Below, piece by piece: positions 305 through 19,986 of a stretch of DNA of 20,411 nt; positions within the stretch are counted from its first letter, which is position 1; every line of letters begins with the position of its first letter. A model generated the notes under the pieces. It ran no database searches. It was not told the origin of the DNA and worked only from the letters and a program-made list of their open reading frames with translations. Source of the DNA: a virus; IMG/VR virus record IMGVR_UViG_3300044302_005144, positions 1 through 20,411 of that record. The stretch is one strand, 5' to 3'. Made by a program: the position numbers and the translations under genes.

Positions 305-313
305 GTAAATAGT
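305..313 (-). promoter_or_regulatory. Late-promoter-like motif ACTATTTAC ahead of tail sheath gene
   Basis: The minus strand reads ACTATTTAC here, 53 bases upstream of the sheath ATG and in the 115-base gap after the tail-terminator gene. The same 9-mer or a one-base variant recurs in the other gaps that open gene groups in this window. The inference is a phage late promoter. Confidence 0.55.
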
Positions 314-3467: not shown

Positions 3468-3476
3468 GTAAATAGT
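3468..3476 (-). promoter_or_regulatory. Late-promoter-like motif ACTATTTAC opening the neck unit
   Basis: The minus strand reads ACTATTTAC, 28 bases ahead of the ATG of the basic 117-residue gene. It stands about 80 bases downstream of the terminator at 3559-3590. A motif after a terminator and before a new gene is the arrangement expected of a promoter. Confidence 0.6.
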
Positions 3477-4152: not shown

Positions 4153-4161
4153 ATAAGTAGT
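4153..4161 (-). promoter_or_regulatory. Promoter-like motif variant ACTACTTAT
   Basis: The minus strand reads ACTACTTAT, one base from the recurrent ACTATTTAT. It begins 12 bases past the terminator behind the capsid gene and lies 65 bases ahead of the ATG at 4088. Confidence 0.5.
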
Positions 4162-7353: not shown

Positions 7354-7362
7354 ATAAATAGT
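7354..7362 (-). promoter_or_regulatory. Late-promoter-like motif ACTATTTAT ahead of scaffold-capsid unit
   Basis: The minus strand reads ACTATTTAT, 32 bases ahead of the scaffold ATG, in the 75-base gap after the beta-propeller gene. It would drive scaffold and capsid together up to the terminator at 4174-4200. Confidence 0.6.
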
Positions 7363-8630: not shown

Positions 8631-11600
8631 CTATAATTGGAACCAATCATAACTTGGGTTAAAATAGATAATCTTCTCGGCTGCAATTCCGTGGCCGACC
8701 GCGCGGATCACATCGCCGACCGCGCTTGGGCGCGTAAACGATATAGTTCCTGCTGCAAGACCAACATAGCAAGTTCCACCTGTCACGAAAGTACTGCTGT
8801 CGCCGAGTGTGTTAGCGTGGAAATAGCCTTTAATAAGGATACCATCTGAGACAGAGGTACCTAGGGCAATCCCTAACTGCACCGGGCCAGCAGAGACTTC
8901 TTCATCCGCATCTGCATAGCGCCAGAAAGACCCTGTTGTCGACCCTGAAAGATACATTAGTTTTCCAGCGGCCAAGGTATCCGTTCCGTGTTCAGAACCA
9001 TAGTAAACAACTTCTCCTAGGCCCGTATCAGCCGAAAGGGTTGTTGGATCGGTGAAGGTCATGTGGTTATACAGCTCAGTTTTGCCAGAGACCCTCAAGG
9101 CTCCGGTTACTTCGGCCACAGACGATACAGAAAGTGTGCCGGTTACTGAAAGTGTGTGGGTCGGGGTGTCAGAATTCACACCGACTTTGTCTGCTGTGCC
9201 GGCCACATAGAGCATGTGAGTATTATTATCTGATTCTACGCGAAAGTCAATCATTGTTTCTGAACCCTGATTAACAACAACTTCTGGGACCCCTCCGTCG
9301 ATTCGGAAGCCTTCACGAATAGTGCCGTTATCGTTTGCTTTAAACACAATGTGCTTGTTGCTTGTGTTATTCTGGAACAAGATATTATTAGAAGAATTAT
9401 ACCCCATATAACCTAATCCGGTACCGGCACTATTGCTAAAAAAGATGTACGGCTCATGGTTTCTCATTTCAGCGTTTCCGGAAAGGAACAACATCTTGGT
9501 GCTAGAATCAAAAGTAAGGCGCTCTTCTGCTGTGGCGCTAGAGCCAGCATCAGATGTTAAAATTCTATTTGCGCCGGCACTGTTTAGCGTGGTAATCGAT
9601 GGAGCTGCACCGTTAGAAGCAGCAGTCAAGCGACCTTGAGCATCGACAGTTATTGCTGAATAAGTGTATGAACCTGCACTGACAGAAGTATCATCGAGAT
9701 TAACTGTTACAGTATCGGTTGCAGAAGCGGCCGTAGTTATACCTGTACCTCCTGCAATATCAACCGTGTTACCATCTGCGATGGCCTGATTTGAACCCCC
9801 ATCTGCTGAAAGCGTCCAGCTAGACATTGTTCCGGGCCCGACGCCCGAAAGTGTGCTTCCATCTCCATAGAAAGCAGATGCTGAAATGTTTATCGAAGCT
9901 GAAAGATTACCGTCAACGATAACATTACTTCCTACAGGATCTAAAACAATATTCCCATCAACACTACATGTAAGGTGAGCAGCGCTGGCGCCGCCATCAA
10001 CAGTTGAGATCGTGGTTGCACCGTTGGCGATGGTTTTAATCTGAAAATAATCGGCATTATCTGCTTGGCTTCTAATTCTAAAGTCCACATCGTTAGTGCC
10101 ATCACCGCAGTCAATGAATAGTCCGTAGTTTATATCTCCGCCAGTAGCTTTTAATCTTCCTGCTGTGTTGATGCTCGTGCCGTTTGTTCCAGCTGTTGAC
10201 TCGATATTTATACCCCACAAGTGGCACTCGCCGGCGTCAGCAGCGTGCGTAAGCCTCGGAGTAACATGTAAGCCATACATGGTGTTGATACCATTGGTGG
10301 CTGTCGTATTATCCATGTCAAGTTGGATACCATACATGGTATTATCTGATGTGGAAGCTCCGGTTTTATCCCAGTCTATATCTAAGCCGACTACTGAAGC
10401 CTCAGTGAGATCCGAGTAATTCTTGTCTATTTTTACTCCTGTTTTGCCGCCGTCTGACTGGACTGCGAGTGCTTGAGCGTTAATCGCCCCGGTATGATTC
10501 TGAATTATGAGCGCGGTATTTCTTGTTCCTGTGTTTGGTGAGTTATCATCAACATAAAGAGCATTACCGGTGGTTAAACCATCTGCGCCAATGGCAAGCA
10601 CCCTTGCTGTTGTTACATCATTTGCTGTTACATTGACCACATTTGCGTCAATGTTGCCGGCATTAATATCAAGACATTGCTGGTCAGTGTCGTTGTTGTT
10701 TAGCTGTAAAAGAGGCACTCCGGTCGCGCCTGCAGAAGCATGATTTTTAATTTCTAATGTGGCACCGGGCGATCCTGTATTGTCACCGATGCTCATCCTG
10801 TTGGAAGAACCCTCAACAAAAAGCATATGGGATTCGTCGGCAGTTTCAACTCTAAAGTCAACATCGACACCCCCTTCGTTAAATGTTACTTCGTTTTGAG
10901 TATCTTCGGTGAGATCTAGAAAATTGACTCCGCCGGCTTGGAAGTTTATATCGTCATCTGTAAAGTTAATAAATGTATCGGTATCACCTACATGAAAGAT
11001 CTTGTCGGAGACACCTAAATCTGTTCCATCAAATGTCAGATTGGCCTCGCCGTTAAGAGCATCCGCAGAACTAAAGGTGGCTACTCTGTTGTCTACGCCG
11101 TTGGCAACTGCTGAAACGGGGCTGGCGCTCAATAACACTCCGTTGGCATAAAACGCGGACCCGGAAATGTTTAACGAACTTGACAAGTGAGTGGTGTCTA
11201 TGACCGTAGTTGCAGTCCTAAGAGAAGAACCGGTAACTCCCAAGGATGCGGATATCTGACCGATCGATTTAAGTATATTGCCATCAAATGTCAGATTGGC
11301 CTCGCCATTAATAGAGGCGGCGCCGGCAGAAGTCAGAACATAGTTATCGGTCGCATTATTGTAGGTCGTAACTGACGGACCTGTTCCGCTGCTAGCGGCT
11401 GTTAAGCGGCCTTGCGCATCGACCGTTATGGCTGAATATGTGTAAGAGCCTGCGGATACACTGGTGTCATCTAGATTAACAGTCACGGTGTCGGTTGCAG
11501 AAGCAGCTGTGCTGATTCCGGTACCACCAGCAATATCGACGGTGTTGCCATCTGAAATGGCCTGATTCGAGCCAGCATCTGCCGAAAGTGTCCAGCTAGA

Positions 11601-12380
11601 CATGGTTCCGGGACCAACGCCACTAAGTGTACTGCCGTCACCATAGAAGGCGGCGCCAGAGATATGTAACGAACTTGACAAGTGTGCCGAGGTTATTATT
11701 GTGCTTCCTGCTCCGCCACCAACCATAGTGATCGTATCACCATAAATCGATATCGGAGAACCACCAGAAACAGCACTAGCTGTTAAAGCAGAAATAGTTG
11801 CGCTGGATGCTGAGATCGTAGATGAACCACTAAAAGTTAAACTACCGGTAATTGTAACTGAGGAAGCTGAAATATCAAGCGGAGAGCCGCCCACAATAGA
11901 ACTGGCATTAAGGACTCTAAAGTGACCAGTTGAACCGCTTACTCCCAGAGAGGCAGAGATTTCACCTGTCGCGGCTAAAATTGCACCGTCATATGTAAGC
12001 CCTGCTTCTCCTTGCACTGTTGAAGAGTTTACCGAAGTTATAACTCGATTGTCAGCCGCGTTGTTGTATGTGGTGATCGGAGGCGCGATGACCAAAGTAC
12101 CATCGGCATAAAATGCTGATGCTGAAATATTCAGTGAACTTGAAATTTGTGTTGTGTTGATCGTTGTGCCGGCCACATCCAGAGAAGCTGCTGTTATTCC
12201 TACCGAACACGAAAGGGGAATAGACGAAGTGATATAAGAGCCAGATACTATGAACCTTTGCTCGCCATTGGTTTTTAGTGCAATGAAGTCATTTTCGAAA
12301 TCCACTTGTGTGTCGAGAGGATCTCCTTCGTATTTTACATCACCGTGTTGTTGAGGGCCTTTTGAGCTGTTATATGCCAT
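8631..12380 (-). CDS. Long repetitive fibre-like protein (1249 aa)
   Basis: This is the largest gene of the window. The product is built from recurring beta-rich modules. Units like 'SLNISASAFYADG' and 'EANLTFDGNIL' appear several times. A module of about 80 residues, from 'GPGTMSSWTLSAD' to 'VDAQGRLTAAS', occurs twice almost unchanged. A 'DFRVE...HML(F/Y)V.G' module also occurs twice. The last 130 residues (from about 'VVYYGSEHG' to 'NPSYDWFQL') are not repeated and form a likely C-terminal domain. Similar architectures are common in fibre proteins of marine T4-like phages, usually trimeric rods for host contact. It starts MAYNSSKG, like three neighbouring paralogues, and its gene lies between the 375-residue and beta-propeller genes in a compact run. 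Whether it belongs to the tail or the head surface cannot be told. No chaperone gene is evident next to it. Confidence 0.85.
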   Translation of the reverse strand: MAYNSSKGPQQHGDVKYEGDPLDTQVDFENDFIALKTNGEQRFIVSGSYITSSIPLSCSVGITAASLDVAGTTINTTQISSSLNISASAFYADGTLVIAPPITTYNNAADNRVITSVNSSTVQGEAGLTYDGAILAATGEISASLGVSGSTGHFRVLNASSIVGGSPLDISASSVTITGSLTFSGSSTISASSATISALTASAVSGGSPISIYGDTITMVGGGAGSTIITSAHLSSSLHISGAAFYGDGSTLSGVGPGTMSSWTLSADAGSNQAISDGNTVDIAGGTGISTAASATDTVTVNLDDTSVSAGSYTYSAITVDAQGRLTAASSGTGPSVTTYNNATDNYVLTSAGAASINGEANLTFDGNILKSIGQISASLGVTGSSLRTATTVIDTTHLSSSLNISGSAFYANGVLLSASPVSAVANGVDNRVATFSSADALNGEANLTFDGTDLGVSDKIFHVGDTDTFINFTDDDINFQAGGVNFLDLTEDTQNEVTFNEGGVDVDFRVETADESHMLFVEGSSNRMSIGDNTGSPGATLEIKNHASAGATGVPLLQLNNNDTDQQCLDINAGNIDANVVNVTANDVTTARVLAIGADGLTTGNALYVDDNSPNTGTRNTALIIQNHTGAINAQALAVQSDGGKTGVKIDKNYSDLTEASVVGLDIDWDKTGASTSDNTMYGIQLDMDNTTATNGINTMYGLHVTPRLTHAADAGECHLWGINIESTAGTNGTSINTAGRLKATGGDINYGLFIDCGDGTNDVDFRIRSQADNADYFQIKTIANGATTISTVDGGASAAHLTCSVDGNIVLDPVGSNVIVDGNLSASINISASAFYGDGSTLSGVGPGTMSSWTLSADGGSNQAIADGNTVDIAGGTGITTAASATDTVTVNLDDTSVSAGSYTYSAITVDAQGRLTAASNGAAPSITTLNSAGANRILTSDAGSSATAEERLTFDSSTKMLFLSGNAEMRNHEPYIFFSNSAGTGLGYMGYNSSNNILFQNNTSNKHIVFKANDNGTIREGFRIDGGVPEVVVNQGSETMIDFRVESDNNTHMLYVAGTADKVGVNSDTPTHTLSVTGTLSVSSVAEVTGALRVSGKTELYNHMTFTDPTTLSADTGLGEVVYYGSEHGTDTLAAGKLMYLSGSTTGSFWRYADADEEVSAGPVQLGIALGTSVSDGILIKGYFHANTLGDSSTFVTGGTCYVGLAAGTISFTRPSAVGDVIRAVGHGIAAEKIIYFNPSYDWFQL
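9609..9875. repeat. Internal duplication of the 1249-residue gene, downstream copy
   Basis: This stretch encodes AFYGDGS, then the GPGTMSSWTLSAD-to-LTAASNG module. It matches the stretch at 11386-11651 almost residue for residue, while the DNA differs at many third codon positions. Confidence 0.85.
11386..11651. repeat. Internal duplication of the 1249-residue gene, upstream copy
   Basis: This copy of the module differs from that at 9609-9875 by only a few residues over about 80, such as A/G in 'SADAGSN' and S/A in 'QAISDGN'. Confidence 0.85.
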
Positions 12381-12414: not shown

Positions 12415-13542
12415 TTAAGAACCTTTAGTCCCTATTATCCACCAGTTTTCACCATCCGATTGAAATGTTCGAGAGGAATAATTCATTTTTATAGTTGTTT
12501 GGTTGTTTATATCGATTGTCCCCTCAGCGCAACTCACCTCAACTTCGTTTGAGTTTAATTTATACTTGTCTCTATTCGTTTTCTTTATAACCAGAACCCT
12601 TCCCCTGTTGTTCACAGCAGGAGGAAGTTCAACTTTAATCTTGTTGTTTGAGGCATCACACAAAATTGTATAATCGCTTTCTAAAACTTGATACACCCGG
12701 TCAGTTGTCTTGATTATGCTATAGTGTACGGAACCTTCGCAATTCAATCTCTTTTTTACATTAATGTGTTTAGAACTAAGTCTTCCTTCAAGATTTAATG
12801 TGTTGCTGTCGCAATCAAAGCTTAAATTGGCGGACGATTCAAATTCAGAATTTCCCTTAAGCTGTAGTTGGCCGCGCGCGCCTGCAGCATGAGGGACTTT
12901 TAAGCTAATATAGTTGTCGTAAAGGTTTCCCAGCGTGGTGTTTCTTGTTGCACTTACTGAAACATCTGAGACCACAAGCAAGTCGTCATCACTTAAGTTT
13001 TGTCCTCTGGTGTTGACTTTTTCTATTTTGGTGAGGTCCATTGTCAGCTTTTTTGATTTAAGGACGAGCCCGCAGTCATTTTCAAGATAAAGGCTCAAGC
13101 CTTCTTCGTCACAACAAATGCCATGGGCCGTTTTTGGTTGTAGTGCTCCTCTAACATTCTGCAAACCGTTGCCATAGTTTAAAAAATTTGCACCAATCTC
13201 GCCATTAAACTTATCGACTGGCAAATTTACTAAAAATCTCGCTGATCCTGCATATTCTTCGCTTACAATTCTTCTAGCACGCAAAAGTTCTCCATCATAA
13301 ATTAAATTATGGGAGGCTCTTGCTATATTTTCGTCATCATAAACTAAAATGCCCCCTTTCGTGGCACCGTTTATCTTTTTTATCGCCACATCTTTTAATG
13401 TCGCGCAAGGACTCTGGGCATCAGTGTCGTAAAAAACACTGGCGCTTACTGTGTTTTTAAAAACTTTTACTCCGCCGATCTCTTGATCCGCATGTTGATC
13501 TACCGAGCCTTGAACACTCCCCTTTAAAACATTATATGCCAT
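12415..13542 (-). CDS. Fibre-like structural protein with paralogous N-terminus (375 aa)
   Basis: The protein begins MAYNVLKGSVQGSVDQHADQ, sharing the MAYN opening with the 245- and 1249-residue proteins. A segment 'SHNLIYDGELLRARR' parallels the 'LTFDGNIL' units of the long fibre, and 'ANLSFDCDSNTLNLEGRLSS' is another. The C-terminal 60 residues, including 'TIDINNQTTIKMNYSSRTF' and 'SDGENWWIIG', resemble the tip-like endings of the 222-, 245- and 633-residue proteins. It has more Lys, Cys and Asn than those relatives and fewer simple repeats, so it seems to be a diverged paralogue. The ATG follows GAGGG with seven bases between. A promoter-like motif lies 18 bases ahead, overlapping the end of the Smr gene. 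The role is probably in a fibre or virion surface appendage. Confidence 0.78.
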   Translation of the reverse strand: MAYNVLKGSVQGSVDQHADQEIGGVKVFKNTVSASVFYDTDAQSPCATLKDVAIKKINGATKGGILVYDDENIARASHNLIYDGELLRARRIVSEEYAGSARFLVNLPVDKFNGEIGANFLNYGNGLQNVRGALQPKTAHGICCDEEGLSLYLENDCGLVLKSKKLTMDLTKIEKVNTRGQNLSDDDLLVVSDVSVSATRNTTLGNLYDNYISLKVPHAAGARGQLQLKGNSEFESSANLSFDCDSNTLNLEGRLSSKHINVKKRLNCEGSVHYSIIKTTDRVYQVLESDYTILCDASNNKIKVELPPAVNNRGRVLVIKKTNRDKYKLNSNEVEVSCAEGTIDINNQTTIKMNYSSRTFQSDGENWWIIGTKGS

Positions 13543-13553
13543 TTTTTGCCCTC

Positions 13554-13790
13554 TTAATCATAAATAGATTCATTTATCGTTTTGTCTTGTATTATGTAGG
13601 CTCCAAAGTTGCTGAAATGTTCTGGAAAATAATACATTTCGTATTTTTCTACAACTTCTTTAACGATCACTTTCATTTTAGGCGAGTTACCGGTGATGAT
13701 TTTTATAGGTGTTTCGTTAGATAATACAAATTGTTCTACCAAATCTCGGGCTTCGAAGTGAGTTTTCCCGTGTAAGTCCAGAATCTTCAT
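13554..13790 (-). CDS. Small stand-alone Smr-domain protein
   Basis: The 78-residue product is little more than an Smr (small MutS-related) domain. It begins MKILDLHGKTHFEARDLVEQ, with the DLHG motif at residues 5-8, then 'IKIITGNSPKMKVIVKEVV' where many Smr domains have a glycine-rich HGKG-like loop, and ends with 'YIIQDK'. The DLH motif is needed for RNA cleavage in bacterial SmrB, which acts on collided ribosomes; here it is intact, but the second motif is TGNS rather than HG-G. Nuclease activity is therefore uncertain, and nucleic-acid binding is a safe minimum. The start is ATG at 13790; a longer reading from 13904 would run back through the terminator into the previous gene. No ribosome site is visible, since the 20 bases ahead are pyrimidine-rich. 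Confidence 0.8.
   Translation of the reverse strand: MKILDLHGKTHFEARDLVEQFVLSNETPIKIITGNSPKMKVIVKEVVEKYEMYYFPEHFSNFGAYIIQDKTINESIYD
13560..13568 (-). promoter_or_regulatory. Promoter-like motif variant TCTATTTAT before the 375-residue gene
   Basis: The minus strand reads TCTATTTAT, matching the recurrent motif at eight of nine bases, 18 bases ahead of the ATG at 13542. It overlaps the last codons of the Smr gene (Ser-Ile-Tyr), so it could be chance. Confidence 0.4.
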
Positions 13791-13796
13791 ATCAAA

Positions 13797-13805
13797 GTAA
13801 GTAGT
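13797..13805 (-). promoter_or_regulatory. Promoter-like motif variant ACTACTTAC before the Smr gene
   Basis: The minus strand reads ACTACTTAC, beginning three bases after the terminator T-run and ending six bases before the Smr ATG. If this is a -10-type element, transcription would start at or next to the ATG, giving a leaderless message. That would explain the missing ribosome site. Confidence 0.45.
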
Positions 13806-13807
13806 AC

Positions 13808-13841
13808 AAAAAAAAGGATGCCCCCACAAAGGGAGGCATCC
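13808..13841 (-). terminator. Rho-independent terminator after the 633-residue gene
   Basis: On the minus strand GGATGCC and GGCATCC form a perfect outer stem, extended by three more G-C pairs past a bulged base, with a five-base loop. Eight T follow directly. It is the strongest terminator in the window and lies 31 bases past the stop codon. Confidence 0.88.
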
Positions 13842-13872
13842 AAAAAATCCAACGACTGTCGGAAAGTGTATA

Positions 13873-15774
13873 TTACACGATCTTCCAGTGGTCAGCGACA
13901 ACATAGACCATAGTTACAGCAGCGAATGGTGACTCAAGGACAATGCCCTCAAGGCCGTCGATTCTGTGATCAGCGGATCCTTTGTTGATTGTAATAACTG
14001 CATTGCTAGTAAGGTTACCTGCTTTAGCAACAACAACATCACCAACAGATGGTGAAGCTGGCATTGTTACGGTAGCGTTAGAGCTAGCGTCTGCAAAGTA
14101 GTTGTAACCTTCGACGAGAGCCTCGCTGTCGGCTTTAATAGCAACATTGTTACCTGTGACAGAAAGTTGACCAGAAGCAGCCGAAAGACCAGCGCCAGCC
14201 ATGCTGGCTACGAGGTCAGCAATACTTTCTTTCTTGGTTTCACCAGTTGCACCGCCGTCAAGGAAGACAATGTAGTCACTAGCAACTGCAGCTGCAGCTT
14301 CAGTGGTTAATGCAAGAGCGTCTTTAGCAAGACTGTCGACACCGTAGCGCTTAAGAGTACCACCGTCAGAGATCAACAACTCATCAGCAGCGGCGAGGCC
14401 GGCTTGAGCCAACTCAGTTTGACCTGAGATAACATTGTCATTGAGCATTGCGGTTTCAATAGCGTCGTTAGCAATGGTAAGAGCACCGCCGTCAGCGACA
14501 GTAGCATCACCAGAAACAACACCAAAGAAGTGGTCACGAATACTATCGACACCAACTCTCTTGATAGTTCCAGCGTCAGAGATCATCAACTCATCAGCGT
14601 CGGCGATATCGGCGTGAGCCAATTCGTCTTGACCAGAGATGATGTCTTCTGCGAGCATACCGTGCTCAACAGCACCTGCGGCGATGGTGAGAGCACCACC
14701 AGCAGCGACAGTAGCATCGCCGGAAACATTTCCAAAGATTGCATCTTCCATGTTGGAGAATGTAATCTTCTTCTCAGAGCCACCATCGGAGAACACGAAG
14801 TGATCACCTTGGGCAACACCAGTTCCGCCGAGAGCAGAAAGACCATCGATGTCAAGACCGATAGTAAGAATGCTGTCAACACCACCAGTAAAGGTAAGAC
14901 CTGTACCAGCGATAGAACCAGAGATACCAAGTTTGTCAGCAGTGATCGCAAGTGAGGAACCAGAAGTAGACATTGCGAGAATACCACCAGAGGCAGTAAG
15001 ACCGTCGCCAGCAGCAGCAGCAATAAGGTCAGACCATGCTTCTTTCTTGGTTTCGCCAGAAGCTCCACCATCAAGGAAGACAAGATAGTCGTCTGCAACA
15101 GCCATAGCAGCTTCGGTAGTTAACGCAAGGGCGTCTTTCGCAAAACTGTCAACGCCGTAGCGCTTAAGAGTACCACCATCAGAGAGAAGGAACTCATCAG
15201 CAGCCGCAAGGCTACCTTGTGCCAATTCACTTTGGCCAGAGATAACATTGTCGTTAAGCATAGCAGTCTCAACGGCATCGTTAGCGATAGTGAGAACACC
15301 ACCAGCAGCGACAGTAGCATCACCAGAAACATTAGCAAAGATTGAATCCTCTAAGTTAGAGAATGTAACCTTCTTTTCGGTTCCGGCATCGGAAATCAAG
15401 AAGTTGTCACCTTGAGCAACAGTTGCACTACCGAGTGCACTATACTCATCGATATCAAGTTCAAGAGCACCACCGACCTCAGCGAGACCGGGGCCAGCAA
15501 TTCCCGAAACAAAGTCGGAAACGGCTTCGCTCTTCACGAGGCCATCAGTGGCATCTTTGAAGTAAAGCGAATCAGCAGCGTTTGCAATCGCGGCGTCAGC
15601 GACACCGAGAAGTGAAACAGTACCACCAGCAGAAAAGTTTCCAGAACCGGAAACAACACCTGCGTCGGTGGCGGTAAATGCTGTAGTACCAGCATCGTTC
15701 TTAACCGTAAAAGTACCCTCTTGTGTAAGAGATCCACTCATAGTAGCGGCTAAGCTTTGAAATTTATAAGCCAT
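13873..15774 (-). CDS. Repeat-rich fibre or surface protein (633 aa)
   Basis: The protein begins MAYKFQSLAATMSGSLTQEG and is rich in Ala, Gly, Ser, Asp and Leu. A unit beginning 'VSGDATVA-GG-LTIA' and running through 'ISGQ-ELA', 'ADE-L-SD-GT-KR-GVDS' occurs three times. The first and third copies extend through 'AKDALALTTEAA' to 'DGGA-GETKKE', about 110 residues. A second unit, 'LSALG---VAQGD-F--SD-G-EKK-TFSN-ED-IF', precedes copies one and two. The last 90 residues, with 'NATVTMPASPSVGDVVVAKAG' and 'IVLESPFAAVTMVYVVADHWKIV', match the C-terminal domains of the 222- and 245-residue proteins. The gene has its own promoter-like motif, a strong GGAGGG ribosome site and the strongest terminator seen, so it may be made in large amounts. 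A trimeric fibre or capsid-bound spike is the likely product. Confidence 0.82.
   Translation of the reverse strand: MAYKFQSLAATMSGSLTQEGTFTVKNDAGTTAFTATDAGVVSGSGNFSAGGTVSLLGVADAAIANAADSLYFKDATDGLVKSEAVSDFVSGIAGPGLAEVGGALELDIDEYSALGSATVAQGDNFLISDAGTEKKVTFSNLEDSIFANVSGDATVAAGGVLTIANDAVETAMLNDNVISGQSELAQGSLAAADEFLLSDGGTLKRYGVDSFAKDALALTTEAAMAVADDYLVFLDGGASGETKKEAWSDLIAAAAGDGLTASGGILAMSTSGSSLAITADKLGISGSIAGTGLTFTGGVDSILTIGLDIDGLSALGGTGVAQGDHFVFSDGGSEKKITFSNMEDAIFGNVSGDATVAAGGALTIAAGAVEHGMLAEDIISGQDELAHADIADADELMISDAGTIKRVGVDSIRDHFFGVVSGDATVADGGALTIANDAIETAMLNDNVISGQTELAQAGLAAADELLISDGGTLKRYGVDSLAKDALALTTEAAAAVASDYIVFLDGGATGETKKESIADLVASMAGAGLSAASGQLSVTGNNVAIKADSEALVEGYNYFADASSNATVTMPASPSVGDVVVAKAGNLTSNAVITINKGSADHRIDGLEGIVLESPFAAVTMVYVVADHWKIV
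14221..14520. repeat. Long direct repeat in the 633-residue gene, second copy
   Basis: This stretch is closely similar in DNA to 15021-15330, with shared runs such as those coding for GTLKRYGVDS and AKDALALTTEAA. The repeats are about 800 bases apart. Confidence 0.8.
15021..15330. repeat. Long direct repeat in the 633-residue gene, first copy
   Basis: It pairs with the stretch at 14221-14520. The similarity holds at both protein and DNA level and could support recombination or misassembly. A third, more diverged and shorter copy lies between them, near 14520-14730. Confidence 0.8.
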
Positions 15775-15864: not shown

Positions 15865-15873
15865 ATAAATAGT
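15865..15873 (-). promoter_or_regulatory. Late-promoter-like motif ACTATTTAT before the 633-residue gene
   Basis: The minus strand reads ACTATTTAT (followed by A) in a 120-base gap, 91 bases ahead of the ATG at 15774. The long leader that would result contains no obvious strong hairpin. No good terminator was found between the previous stop codon at 15895 and this motif. Confidence 0.6.
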
Positions 15874-17795: not shown

Positions 17796-17804
17796 ATAAA
17801 TAGT
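17796..17804 (-). promoter_or_regulatory. Late-promoter-like motif ACTATTTAT opening the fibre unit
   Basis: The minus strand reads ACTATTTAT (followed by A), 30 bases ahead of the ATG at 17766 and directly at the end of the bS21 gene. It is identical to the motifs at 15865-15873 and 7354-7362. Confidence 0.6.
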
Positions 17805-18052
17805 CATCTTTTTTTTCTATTGCGTTTTTCTTCTGCTCTTTGTTTTTTAAGTTCCTCTCGAATCCTTCGTCGATCAGACCTTTTTTTATCCGCTCTTTTT
17901 TGATCCGAGGGTTTAACATAATATCTTTTTTCTTTTATCTTATCGACAATCTTTGCTTTTTTAGTTTTCTTTATGAATCTTCTAATCATTCTTTCGTGAT
18001 TGCCGCGACACTCTTTAGATGTTACTAATACATTGGCTTTCTTTCTTGGCAT
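17804..18052 (-). CDS. rpsU: Phage-encoded ribosomal protein bS21 homologue
   Basis: The 82-residue protein is very basic. After MPRKKANVLVTSK it reads 'HERMIRRFIKKTKKAKIVDKI' and 'KEKRYYVKPSDQKRADKKR', matching the layout of bacterial bS21: a 'LRRFKR--EKAGV' helix, then 'RRREFYEKPTERKR' and a long basic helix. E. coli bS21 has 71 residues. bS21 sits on the 30S platform close to the 3' end of 16S rRNA and helps start translation; it is the ribosomal protein most often found in phage genomes. I chose ATG at 18052, two bases after the previous stop, with GGGAGG 13 bases ahead; a GTG at 18073 would add seven residues and lacks such a site. It is probably coupled to the gene upstream. Incorporation into host ribosomes is inferred from the family. 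Confidence 0.85.
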   Translation of the reverse strand: MPRKKANVLVTSKECRGNHERMIRRFIKKTKKAKIVDKIKEKRYYVKPSDQKRADKKRSDRRRIREELKKQRAEEKRNRKKR

Positions 18053-18444: not shown

Positions 18445-19039
18445 TTAAAACCTCATTTAAAAGCCGGTTGATTTTATCGGCCTTTGTGAATACACTATTA
18501 TTAAACTCTTTAGCTTCGCGCATCATAAATGCGCCGGGTGTTGATGGTTCGGAAACCATATCAAAACAAATCAATTGAAAATCATCTTCGACCATTGTTT
18601 GTCCTTTCTCTTCTCGTACAGAGCCCATGCCCCGGGAAGAAACACCTACTGTAACACCACCGTTGACCAGTTCCTTGAGGATCTTGCCAGATGGGGTCTC
18701 TAAAACTTTAATCTTACCCATGACATTCTTACCTTCCATCCAGATCGCAGTCACCATGTGGGATGCGTTCCTAAGATTGATGACGGAATCGTCTGGGTGA
18801 TCTAGTTCTCCGAGTGCTCGACATTCTTTAACGAGCTTCTCATAGTTTTTAACTTCGCGCATCATTGTAGTGTGGGGATAAACCCTGCCATTGCCGTTTT
18901 GTGTTTCGGTCATTTGCATAATCCCAGAAAGAATCATTCCACCATCAGCAACATAGCGCTTTTCTTCTTCTGTAAGGAGGTCTTGACAGACACCGCCCTC
19001 ACATAGTGCGTAATATTCTCTGAGTAGTTTCTTTGACAT
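18431..19039 (-). CDS. Prohead core protease (gp21-like)
   Basis: This 202-residue serine protease resembles T4 gp21, which cuts scaffold and capsid proteins inside the prohead before DNA packaging. The family pattern is visible in order: 'NGNGRVYPHTTM' (residues 48-59), 'GELDHPDDS' with the probable catalytic His81, 'GVTVGVSSRGMGSV' (128-141) with the catalytic serine at 134 or 135, and 'LICFDMVSEPSTPGAFM' (156-172), where Asp160 stands in the conserved 'D-VS-PS-PGA' motif. The length is close to the 212 residues of T4 gp21. Its start codon shares a base with the preceding stop (TAATG), and the only purine-rich site (GGGGG) is 14 bases away, so it is probably translated by coupling. Its target, the capsid protein, is encoded 12 kb downstream here rather than next door. 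Confidence 0.9.
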   Translation of the reverse strand: MSKKLLREYYALCEGGVCQDLLTEEEKRYVADGGMILSGIMQMTETQNGNGRVYPHTTMMREVKNYEKLVKECRALGELDHPDDSVINLRNASHMVTAIWMEGKNVMGKIKVLETPSGKILKELVNGGVTVGVSSRGMGSVREEKGQTMVEDDFQLICFDMVSEPSTPGAFMMREAKEFNNSVFTKADKINRLLNEVLSEEE

Positions 19040-19941
19040 TATTTACCAAACCCCCATCTTCTTGAGATCTCTTGGAGTTGTTCGTTTAGGGTCTCGCCCT
19101 TTTTTACTTTGCTTTCGTTCTGTTGTTGCGCTGCTCGGGATGGTCTAGCTGCAGCGGCGGTGTTGCCGGCATTACGGCGACTTCGTGCTGCACGGCTAGC
19201 CCGCTGGCGCACAAGGCGGGCTTCTCTTTCTTCCGGGGTTTCTGCTGCTCTTCTCTCTCTTCTCCTAACATTACGAGGATTTTGAGAAAGCTGTCGACGA
19301 CCACTGGCTGCTGGGGCTGCGGCCGGTTCAGCGGCTGGTGCTGGTTCGGCTGCGGCAGGTTCAGCGGCTGCTGGCGCTGCGGCAGGCTGAGCGGCAGGCT
19401 GAGCGGCTGCTGGTTCAGCCGAGGGTGTTGCTGGCTGTGCTGCAGCTTGTTGTTGTTGTGCAGGGGCGGCTTGTTGCTGTTGTGCAGGGGCGGCTTGTTG
19501 CTGTTGTGCAGGGGCGGCTTGTTGCTGACCTTGCTGTTGAGCGCGCTGTTGATCCATACGCTGCATTCGAGCGGTTGTCGGAGCGTCTTTGGCAATCTGT
19601 TGAACTTGGGTGCGGGTTTGATTGATGGCTTGTTGAACCTTCGCTGTTTGATCCTCGATTCCCATCTTCGCTGCATCCATTTTAAGCGACTGGGCTAACT
19701 TAAGGAGTTGCTTGTCGTATGATTTCATAAGGGAAGACGCTTTTTTGAGCGCTTGGGTTGCGTCGATGTCAGTTGTGTCAGCACCAAAAGCACCAGCAAC
19801 CTTACTCTTCAACCCAGAACCTAGGCCAGCTGCGCCGGCTTTCATTCTATCGAGCACACCTTCGTCAATATCATCGTTTTCGATCATATCTTTAATTTCT
19901 TCGTTGATAATTTCTATCAATTCTTTTTTAGTAATTTGCAT
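19039..19941 (-). CDS. Ala/Gln/Pro-rich low-complexity protein, probable prohead or internal protein
   Basis: The start is ATG at 19941 (MQITKKELIEIINEEI, 300 residues), which has GGGGAG six bases ahead; a reading from 19986 is less likely. Residues 1-115 are helical, including an acidic N-terminal helix and a long Gln/Lys-rich helix. Residues 125-205 are low complexity, first 'PAQQQQAA' repeats and then Ala-Pro-Glu runs. Residues 206-280 are strongly basic, with many Arg-Arg pairs (NPRNVRRRERRAAE). The last 25 residues again look ordered (ETLNEQLQEISRRWGFGK). The gene stands directly before the prohead protease, where T4 has the small core proteins gp67 and gp68. A core protein with a DNA- or shell-binding tail is plausible. 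No known family is recognised. Confidence 0.75.
   Translation of the reverse strand: MQITKKELIEIINEEIKDMIENDDIDEGVLDRMKAGAAGLGSGLKSKVAGAFGADTTDIDATQALKKASSLMKSYDKQLLKLAQSLKMDAAKMGIEDQTAKVQQAINQTRTQVQQIAKDAPTTARMQRMDQQRAQQQGQQQAAPAQQQQAAPAQQQQAAPAQQQQAAAQPATPSAEPAAAQPAAQPAAAPAAAEPAAAEPAPAAEPAAAPAASGRRQLSQNPRNVRRRERRAAETPEEREARLVRQRASRAARSRRNAGNTAAAARPSRAAQQQNESKVKKGETLNEQLQEISRRWGFGK
19447..19527. repeat. 24-bp tandem repeat, three units plus a partial one
   Basis: Units lie at 19447-19470, 19471-19494 and 19495-19518, followed by nine bases of a fourth. The second and third are identical and the first differs by one base. Each codes for eight residues of the AAPAQQQQ type, so gain or loss of a unit keeps the reading frame. 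Confidence 0.95.
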
Positions 19942-19986
19942 AGCTAACTCCCCTTGCAGCAATGGCGTACCGGTTGTAGCATCCAC

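Follow-up and report, generated by a model that had tools for sequence, protein, structure and literature searches.

An Smr-like gene with a predicted leaderless start behind a variant T4-type late promoter box in uncultured, T4-related marine phages

Late promoters of phage T4 are described in PMC2988020, in the sections that deal with them, as an 8-base box lying about one turn before the transcription start, with its first two bases at -13 and -12, where the Aeromonas phage Aeh1 has a/gC; according to the same account these promoters have no conserved -35 sequence. The box reads TATAAATA in T4 and KVP40 and NATAAATA in cyanophage S-PM2, as given in the relevant passages of PMC2984593. With respect to messages without a leader, the middle and late messages of the Thermus phage phiYS40 are described as mostly leaderless (PMC3594737, in the part concerned), and one paper remarks that transcripts of phages often lack a leader (PMC5312081). 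Leaderless late messages of phages, which a sequence-only reading of the DNA treated here had called unusual, were thus already known from phiYS40.

The window analyzed here is an entire virus record of 20,411 bases, whose source is a group of uncultured, T4-related marine phages. It contains a T4-related late module, in which gp23 (Pfam E 3.5e-74) is accompanied by a protease of the gp21 type, and the long structural genes of the ORF list lie on its minus strand (Table 1). A fibre protein of 1249 aa (8631-12380) carries a long repeated segment (GDGSTLSGVGPGTMSSWTLSADAGSNQAI..., with a close copy further on), and the frame 19039-19986 contains a run of near-identical, Q- and A-rich PAQQQQAA repeats. 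One of the ribosome-site 4-mers AAGG, AGGA, GGAG or GAGG was present 4-16 bases before 15 of 18 starts placed on a start codon, two further, misplaced starts being left out of this count. The three starts without such a 4-mer were 1279 (start uncertain), 19039 and 13790, the last being the ATG of the Smr-like gene.

Table 1. Features around the Smr-like gene and further late boxes in the window.
Feature	Position	Strand	Remarks
Upstream fibre/structural gene	13873..15774	-	ORF list; PHROG matches weak only; terminators would end its transcription
First hairpin and T run, weaker, terminator-like	13848..13863	-	Folding; just upstream of the strong terminator
Strong intrinsic terminator	13808..13841	-	Stem-loop 13841-13816, T8 at 13815-13808
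Late -10 element of the Smr-like gene, ACTACTTAC	13797..13805	-	Motif scan; without upstream G..TTT
Predicted transcription start	13792..13793	-	A 13792 is offset 13; G 13793 one base earlier
Smr-like gene	13554..13790	-	78 aa, DLHG motif, ATG without ribosome site
Second late -10 element, TCTATTTAT, in the Smr 3' end	13560..13568	-	Next fibre ATG follows after 17 bases
Downstream fibre gene (MAYNVLKG...)	12415..13542	-	ORF list; ribosome site GAGG
Late -10 element, ACTATTTAT	17796..17804	-	Before gene 17766, SD-led
Late -10 element, ACTATTTAT	15865..15873	-	Before gene 15774, SD-led
Late -10 element, ACTATTTAT	7354..7362	-	Before gene 7322, SD-led; upstream G..TTT present
Late -10 element, ACTACTTAT	4153..4161	-	Behind a terminator, before gene 4088, SD-led; G..TTT present
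Late -10 element, ACTATTTAC	3468..3476	-	Before gene 3440, SD-led; upstream G..TTT present
Late -10 element, ACTATTTAC	305..313	-	Before a gene running off the record; upstream G..TTT present

The strong terminator, the gap of 17 bases, the promoter-like motif and the missing ribosome site, all reported in the sequence-only reading, can be read directly on the minus strand. The gap between T8 and the Smr ATG (13790-13788) is GTACTACTTACTTTGAT (13807-13791), and none of the four ribosome-site 4-mers was found 4-16 bases before this ATG. The hairpin of the strong terminator has a predicted energy of -19.3 kcal/mol, which was reached in 0 of 200 shuffles. At the place of the first, weaker structure a separate hairpin was predicted in 17 of 18 aligned loci despite sequence change, the exception being L131.

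Searched in the window with up to one mismatch, the 9-mer ACTACTTAC was weakly enriched (6 found against 3.0 expected, with 7 of 100 shuffles as high). The pattern [AT]CTA[CT]TTA[CT], picked after the window had been seen, had 8 matches in the window, all of them on the coding strand; seven of the eight boxes sit 6-90 bases before a listed start, and the eighth (313) precedes the gene that runs off the record. For a count independent of the window, ACTA[CT]TTA[CT] was searched in the other 94 loci, where 247 matches fell on the gene strand and 5 on the opposite strand; with the window included, the 95 loci gave 254 sense and 5 antisense matches. These loci (the window, 14 Smr relatives and 80 gp23 relatives; 1,006,859 bases or 1.007 Mb) are related to each other, so that the counts are not independent events. 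Judged by its distribution in the sequences, ACTAYTTAY is a real element. Two other candidates were dropped: a scan for sigma-70 promoters gave 10 in 5.5 kb against 8.4 expected and none at the Smr site, and TATAAATA as the late box gave 37 sense against 87 antisense matches in the 95 loci, part of the latter being the complement of ACTAYTTAY itself.

After thinning, 162 sites away from Smr were available for comparison. From 148 of them the box leads to a Shine-Dalgarno start, none of which is nearer than 13 bases; another 9 lead to an ATG without Shine-Dalgarno site (22-87 bases away, in L023 9 bases), and the remaining 5 are followed by no start. Counted from the first A of the motif as offset 0, offset 13 is a purine at a frequency of 0.85, and the next base is A in 62% of these sites. 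Laying ACTAYTTA on the T4 late box, which starts at -13, makes offset 13 the +1 position, in agreement with the purine peak, which likely marks the RNA start. The strand bias, the nearby gp23 and structural genes and the purine peak together point to the T4-type late arrangement, in which a short -10 box is followed by a start about one turn downstream.

Further upstream, sites with (84) and without (78) a predicted hairpin have in common, counted from the motif start, a G at around -19 and T at positions -16 to -14. These upstream GG/T peaks thus look like a promoter element and not like terminator remains only. Relative to the predicted RNA start this G..TTT lies at about -32 to -27. By a fixed rule it was in place at 95 of the 162 sites, compared with 2-17 at places shifted 6-44 bases further up, and in the window it was found at four of the eight sites (7362, 4161, 3476 and 313). 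Where G..TTT is in place, offset 13 is a purine in 87 of 95 cases and the box leads to a Shine-Dalgarno start in 93 of 95; without it the corresponding numbers are 51 and 55 of 67. Possibly the late promoter has two parts, with G..TTT as the -35-like one. At the 28 Smr sites described below it was never found (0/28), because the T run of the terminator sits about five bases closer there. By this sequence comparison the promoter of Smr is a barer and perhaps weaker one, and the absence of G..TTT lowered our confidence in a leaderless start from high to fairly good.

The ACTAYTTAY box is probably read by a gp55-like late sigma factor. A gp55-like ORF was found in the 187 kb relative G002 (E 1e-5 with P-SSM2 gp55), and searches of G002 with T4 gp55 and with both gp45 queries gave no match. 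The looser pattern ACTAYTTA[CTA] gave 30 against 3 matches in G002, where base shuffling predicts 15.6 per strand, so that many single matches may be due to chance. The late box seems to be common to the cultured Flavobacterium phage immuto (L210, 41.6 kb), in which ACTAYTTAY gave 7 sense matches and 1 antisense match, mostly shortly before start codons. In the fetched parts of four further relatives the sense/antisense counts were 0/1 (Mel-JY01), 0/1 (RM378), 0/0 (LR756508) and 0/2 (P-SSM2). A literature search for CTATTTAT with late promoter gave nothing on phages of this kind among the matches listed, and one for ACTATTTA with bacteriophage and promoter gave nothing on a ACTATTTA late box among the best 10 of 17 matches, going by their listed entries.

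Smr nucleases carry a glycine-rich second motif, and Smr proteins are related to ribosome-associated nucleases. The window protein matched the Pfam Smr family (PF01713) at E 0.0013 with 19.3 bits, under the gathering cut-off of 25.7 bits, and 28 of 32 homologs matched it at E up to 0.1 (best 2e-5). In the alignment of these 32 sequences L6, H7 and G8 are invariant, and L4 and D5 occur in at least 90%. An AlphaFold model (pLDDT 90.6) was compared with known structures by Foldseek. Against the PDB, no match had an E under 0.001; the human Smr domain 3fau_B was found at rank 2 behind a mitoribosomal entry (E 0.042, probability 0.97, TM 0.53). The Smr protein of Agrobacterium phage Atu_ph07 likewise took rank 2 (E 0.0067, probability 1.00, TM 0.73), behind an unnamed viral protein (E 1.8e-5). 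The DLHG motif and the alternating alpha/beta fold of the model are in common with both proteins and are consistent with an Smr fold. Compared with Smr domain proteins, the window protein is a stand-alone unit of 78 aa under the Pfam cut-off, and its second motif, TGNS, replaces the glycine-rich one. A search of a phage collection for Smr, with E up to 0.1, gave one match, LR756502, which was partial and covered 44% of the query; a profile search of solved structures gave no match, and NCBIfam gave nothing credible.

Homologs were drawn by the DLHG/TGNS pattern, by which others may be missed, from the best 80 of 86, 79 of 82 loci and 80 of at least 600 matches. This gave 70 distinct Smr proteins, of which 28 have a MAYN-type fibre start no more than 70 bases away and 42 are encoded in other contexts. 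An Smr gene in a fibre cluster is consequently a recurrent feature of this phage group and not, as supposed from the window, an unusual one. Identity to the window protein falls to 41-47% among the 17 of the 28 fibre-cluster members that were aligned (window included). The Smr tree (70 columns, poorly resolved) requires four changes of the fibre label, two of them forced by starred branches.

In the 28 fibre-cluster genes the motif precedes the start codon by 3 (7 genes), 4 (11), 6 (6), 7 (2), 14 (1) or 15 (1) bases. The window and its relatives were compared with respect to two properties expected of a leaderless mRNA, namely that the start has no Shine-Dalgarno site ahead of it and is directly preceded by a -10 element: in 26 of the 28 the motif lies 3-7 bases from an ATG or GTG and no ribosome site is present. 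The two exceptions both combine a longer spacer with a ribosome site (GGAG in L251, GAGG in L120) and pair in the tree at 94/86, below the starred level. Apart from them, the expectation that relatives would keep the spacing between motif and ATG and lack a ribosome site was borne out. A purine is present at offset 12 or 13 in all 28 genes. Such a short distance between motif and start codon (3-7 bases) makes it probable that the Smr message starts on the start codon or no more than about three bases from it. The window ATG occupies offset 15, and the predicted leader is 2 bases (start at A 13792) or 3 bases (start at G 13793). The earlier proposal that the motif acts as a -10 element gains support, short of proof, from the comparison; where it would have the message start at the ATG, a very short leader of not exactly zero length is predicted for the window.

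Of the 28 start codons, 21 are ATG and 7 are GTG. In seven genes the start codon is at offset 12, one base ahead of the modal start, and initiation must therefore shift by one base; six of these seven codons are GTG, which is reported as a poor leaderless start in E. coli and less so in natural messages (PMC9031893, in the part concerned). L099, L100 and L131 have a doubled start, ATGATG or GTGATG, with the first codon at offset 12 behind the late box. L014 has ACTAATTAA, which we counted against a leaderless start. In the 45 bases before the Smr homologs of other contexts the late motif was not found (0 of 42; in L159 no more than 8 upstream bases are available), and the ribosome-site 4-mers are missing in 35 of 42, so that a missing ribosome site alone proves little.

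The late box likewise occurs without Smr. In 39 distinct upstream regions without an Smr gene (L233 and six loci with no match to the first residue of the fibre protein were excluded) the fibre gene is preceded by one (22) or two (17) late-type boxes of a looser pattern. A tie between the presence of the box and that of Smr was consequently dropped, and the box alone does not show that it serves Smr. In the loci with two boxes (among L213-L289, e.g. L215 near 1457) the pairs lie between the terminator and the fibre gene, 18 bases apart in 16 of 17 cases and 17 bases in one; 13 of the 14 distinct 18-base pairs seen belong to this locus. The box of the fibre gene, TCTATTTAT, overlaps the last Smr codons and is still present in L014, whose Smr stop comes earlier. 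Given the boxes in Smr-less relatives, the Smr gene has a terminator-proximal box on one side and the box of the fibre gene on the other. Its near-zero leader may have arisen from a compact insertion, or Smr may have been lost in the other relatives; it is the persistence of the 3-7 base spacing that suggests function.

Other leaderless candidates were listed in all fetched loci. They number 11 and are mostly weak, those at L151 1042 and L066 1421 being most alike to the Smr case. In L151 a late-type gene (MSQDFKYHYGLGHVP..., 137 aa) has ACTATTTAA, 6 bases and an ATG, and in L066 TCTATTTAT and 5 bases precede the ATG of a 360-codon frame that resembles the window gene 1239-1727; both are without a ribosome site. 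At L197 2131 on the minus strand (G002 near 17870) a frame of 310 codons, also lacking a ribosome site, has its ATG 6 bases behind ACTATTTAA; chance matches to the loose motif are numerous there. The candidate in L186 has a ribosome-like AAGGA upstream.

From these data we consider it quite probable that the Smr-like gene is a conserved late gene behind a variant late promoter, whose leaderless start geometry was kept in distant relatives. The intrinsic terminators would stop the message of the upstream fibre gene, and the ACTAYTTAY box directly behind them would launch a new message about 4-5 bases past the motif. Having no ribosome site, this message would be translated leaderless, via recognition of its 5' end, and could continue into the next fibre gene, which would also be served by its own late box inside the Smr end. 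A much more far-reaching idea is that the Smr-like protein is deliberately kept off Shine-Dalgarno translation. Its gene, almost alone in being leaderless among SD-led late genes and placed behind a reduced late promoter that lacks G..TTT, would be expressed by whole 70S ribosomes in small, timed amounts at a stage of late infection that favours leaderless messages, with the protein level coupled to the state of the translation machinery, and the locus would define a two-part G..TTT/ACTAYTTA late promoter class of a large T4-related phage group; we hold this to be distinctly unlikely.

Translation of Smr could also depend mainly on messages that pass the terminators, the start being simply a non-SD one and the box weak or unused. 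The Smr homologs of other contexts, 35 of which have neither a ribosome-site 4-mer nor the promoter motif, would fit such readthrough, as would the missing upstream element of other late promoters at all 28 Smr boxes. However, two hairpins with T runs separate the genes in the window, a late-type box stands 3-15 bases before the start in all 28 Smr genes, and a T run matching the pattern is found in 26 of them, L285 and L286 having five T. Furthermore, readthrough does not predict the ribosome site in both longer-spacer sequences, and we regard it as unlikely.

If the motif is a promoter, initiation might still occur several bases earlier or be spread, so that the message would carry a short leader lacking a ribosome site. 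The start site was assigned from base composition and the T4 alignment, a one-base shift is needed in seven of the 28 genes, and sites lacking the upstream element have a less marked purine peak, all of which speaks for a short leader. Against it stand the peak at offset 13 over the 162 other sites and the finding that no Shine-Dalgarno start lies under 13 bases from the motif, as expected for an RNA starting 4-5 bases past it; such a leader therefore appears quite improbable. That the box serves the downstream fibre gene only, the Smr frame being carried along with little or no translation, would agree with the one or two boxes at the same place in Smr-less relatives (22 and 17 of 39). Yet the fibre gene owns its TCTATTTAT box, conservation of the Smr protein sets in at its first residues and the Smr frame is intact in the 28 fibre-cluster members found, which makes this explanation highly improbable.

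If a leaderless start holds, one gene in an SD-led, T4-related late region keeps this geometry across deep divergence. The two lengthened-spacer sequences, both with a ribosome site, would then form a natural contrast and a clean test of why the leaderless route was kept. The ACTAYTTA box and the upstream element would further serve as a signature of late promoters across many uncultured phages, and the enrichment of the box in the cultured immuto offers a phage in which the promoter is testable.

Compared with the T4 family, as far as described in the cited accounts, the present loci have in common a single short -10-type box before late structural genes and a predicted purine start about one helix turn past the box start, as well as a gp55-like gene in the relative G002; the AC at -13/-12 of the window-group box corresponds to Aeh1. 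Unlike in T4, the box reads ACTAYTTA and not TATAAATA, and G..TTT is found near -35 in 95 of the 162 other sites, in contrast to the T4 promoters as characterized in the source cited. A late phage message without leader, predicted here from the sequence, resembles what has been described for phiYS40. Unlike in the account given of that phage, nearly all late boxes here lead to Shine-Dalgarno starts, with Smr as a recurrent exception. Leaderless phage late messages and T4-type late boxes are both already known, and what the Smr case adds to them is a variant late promoter and a recurrent exception.
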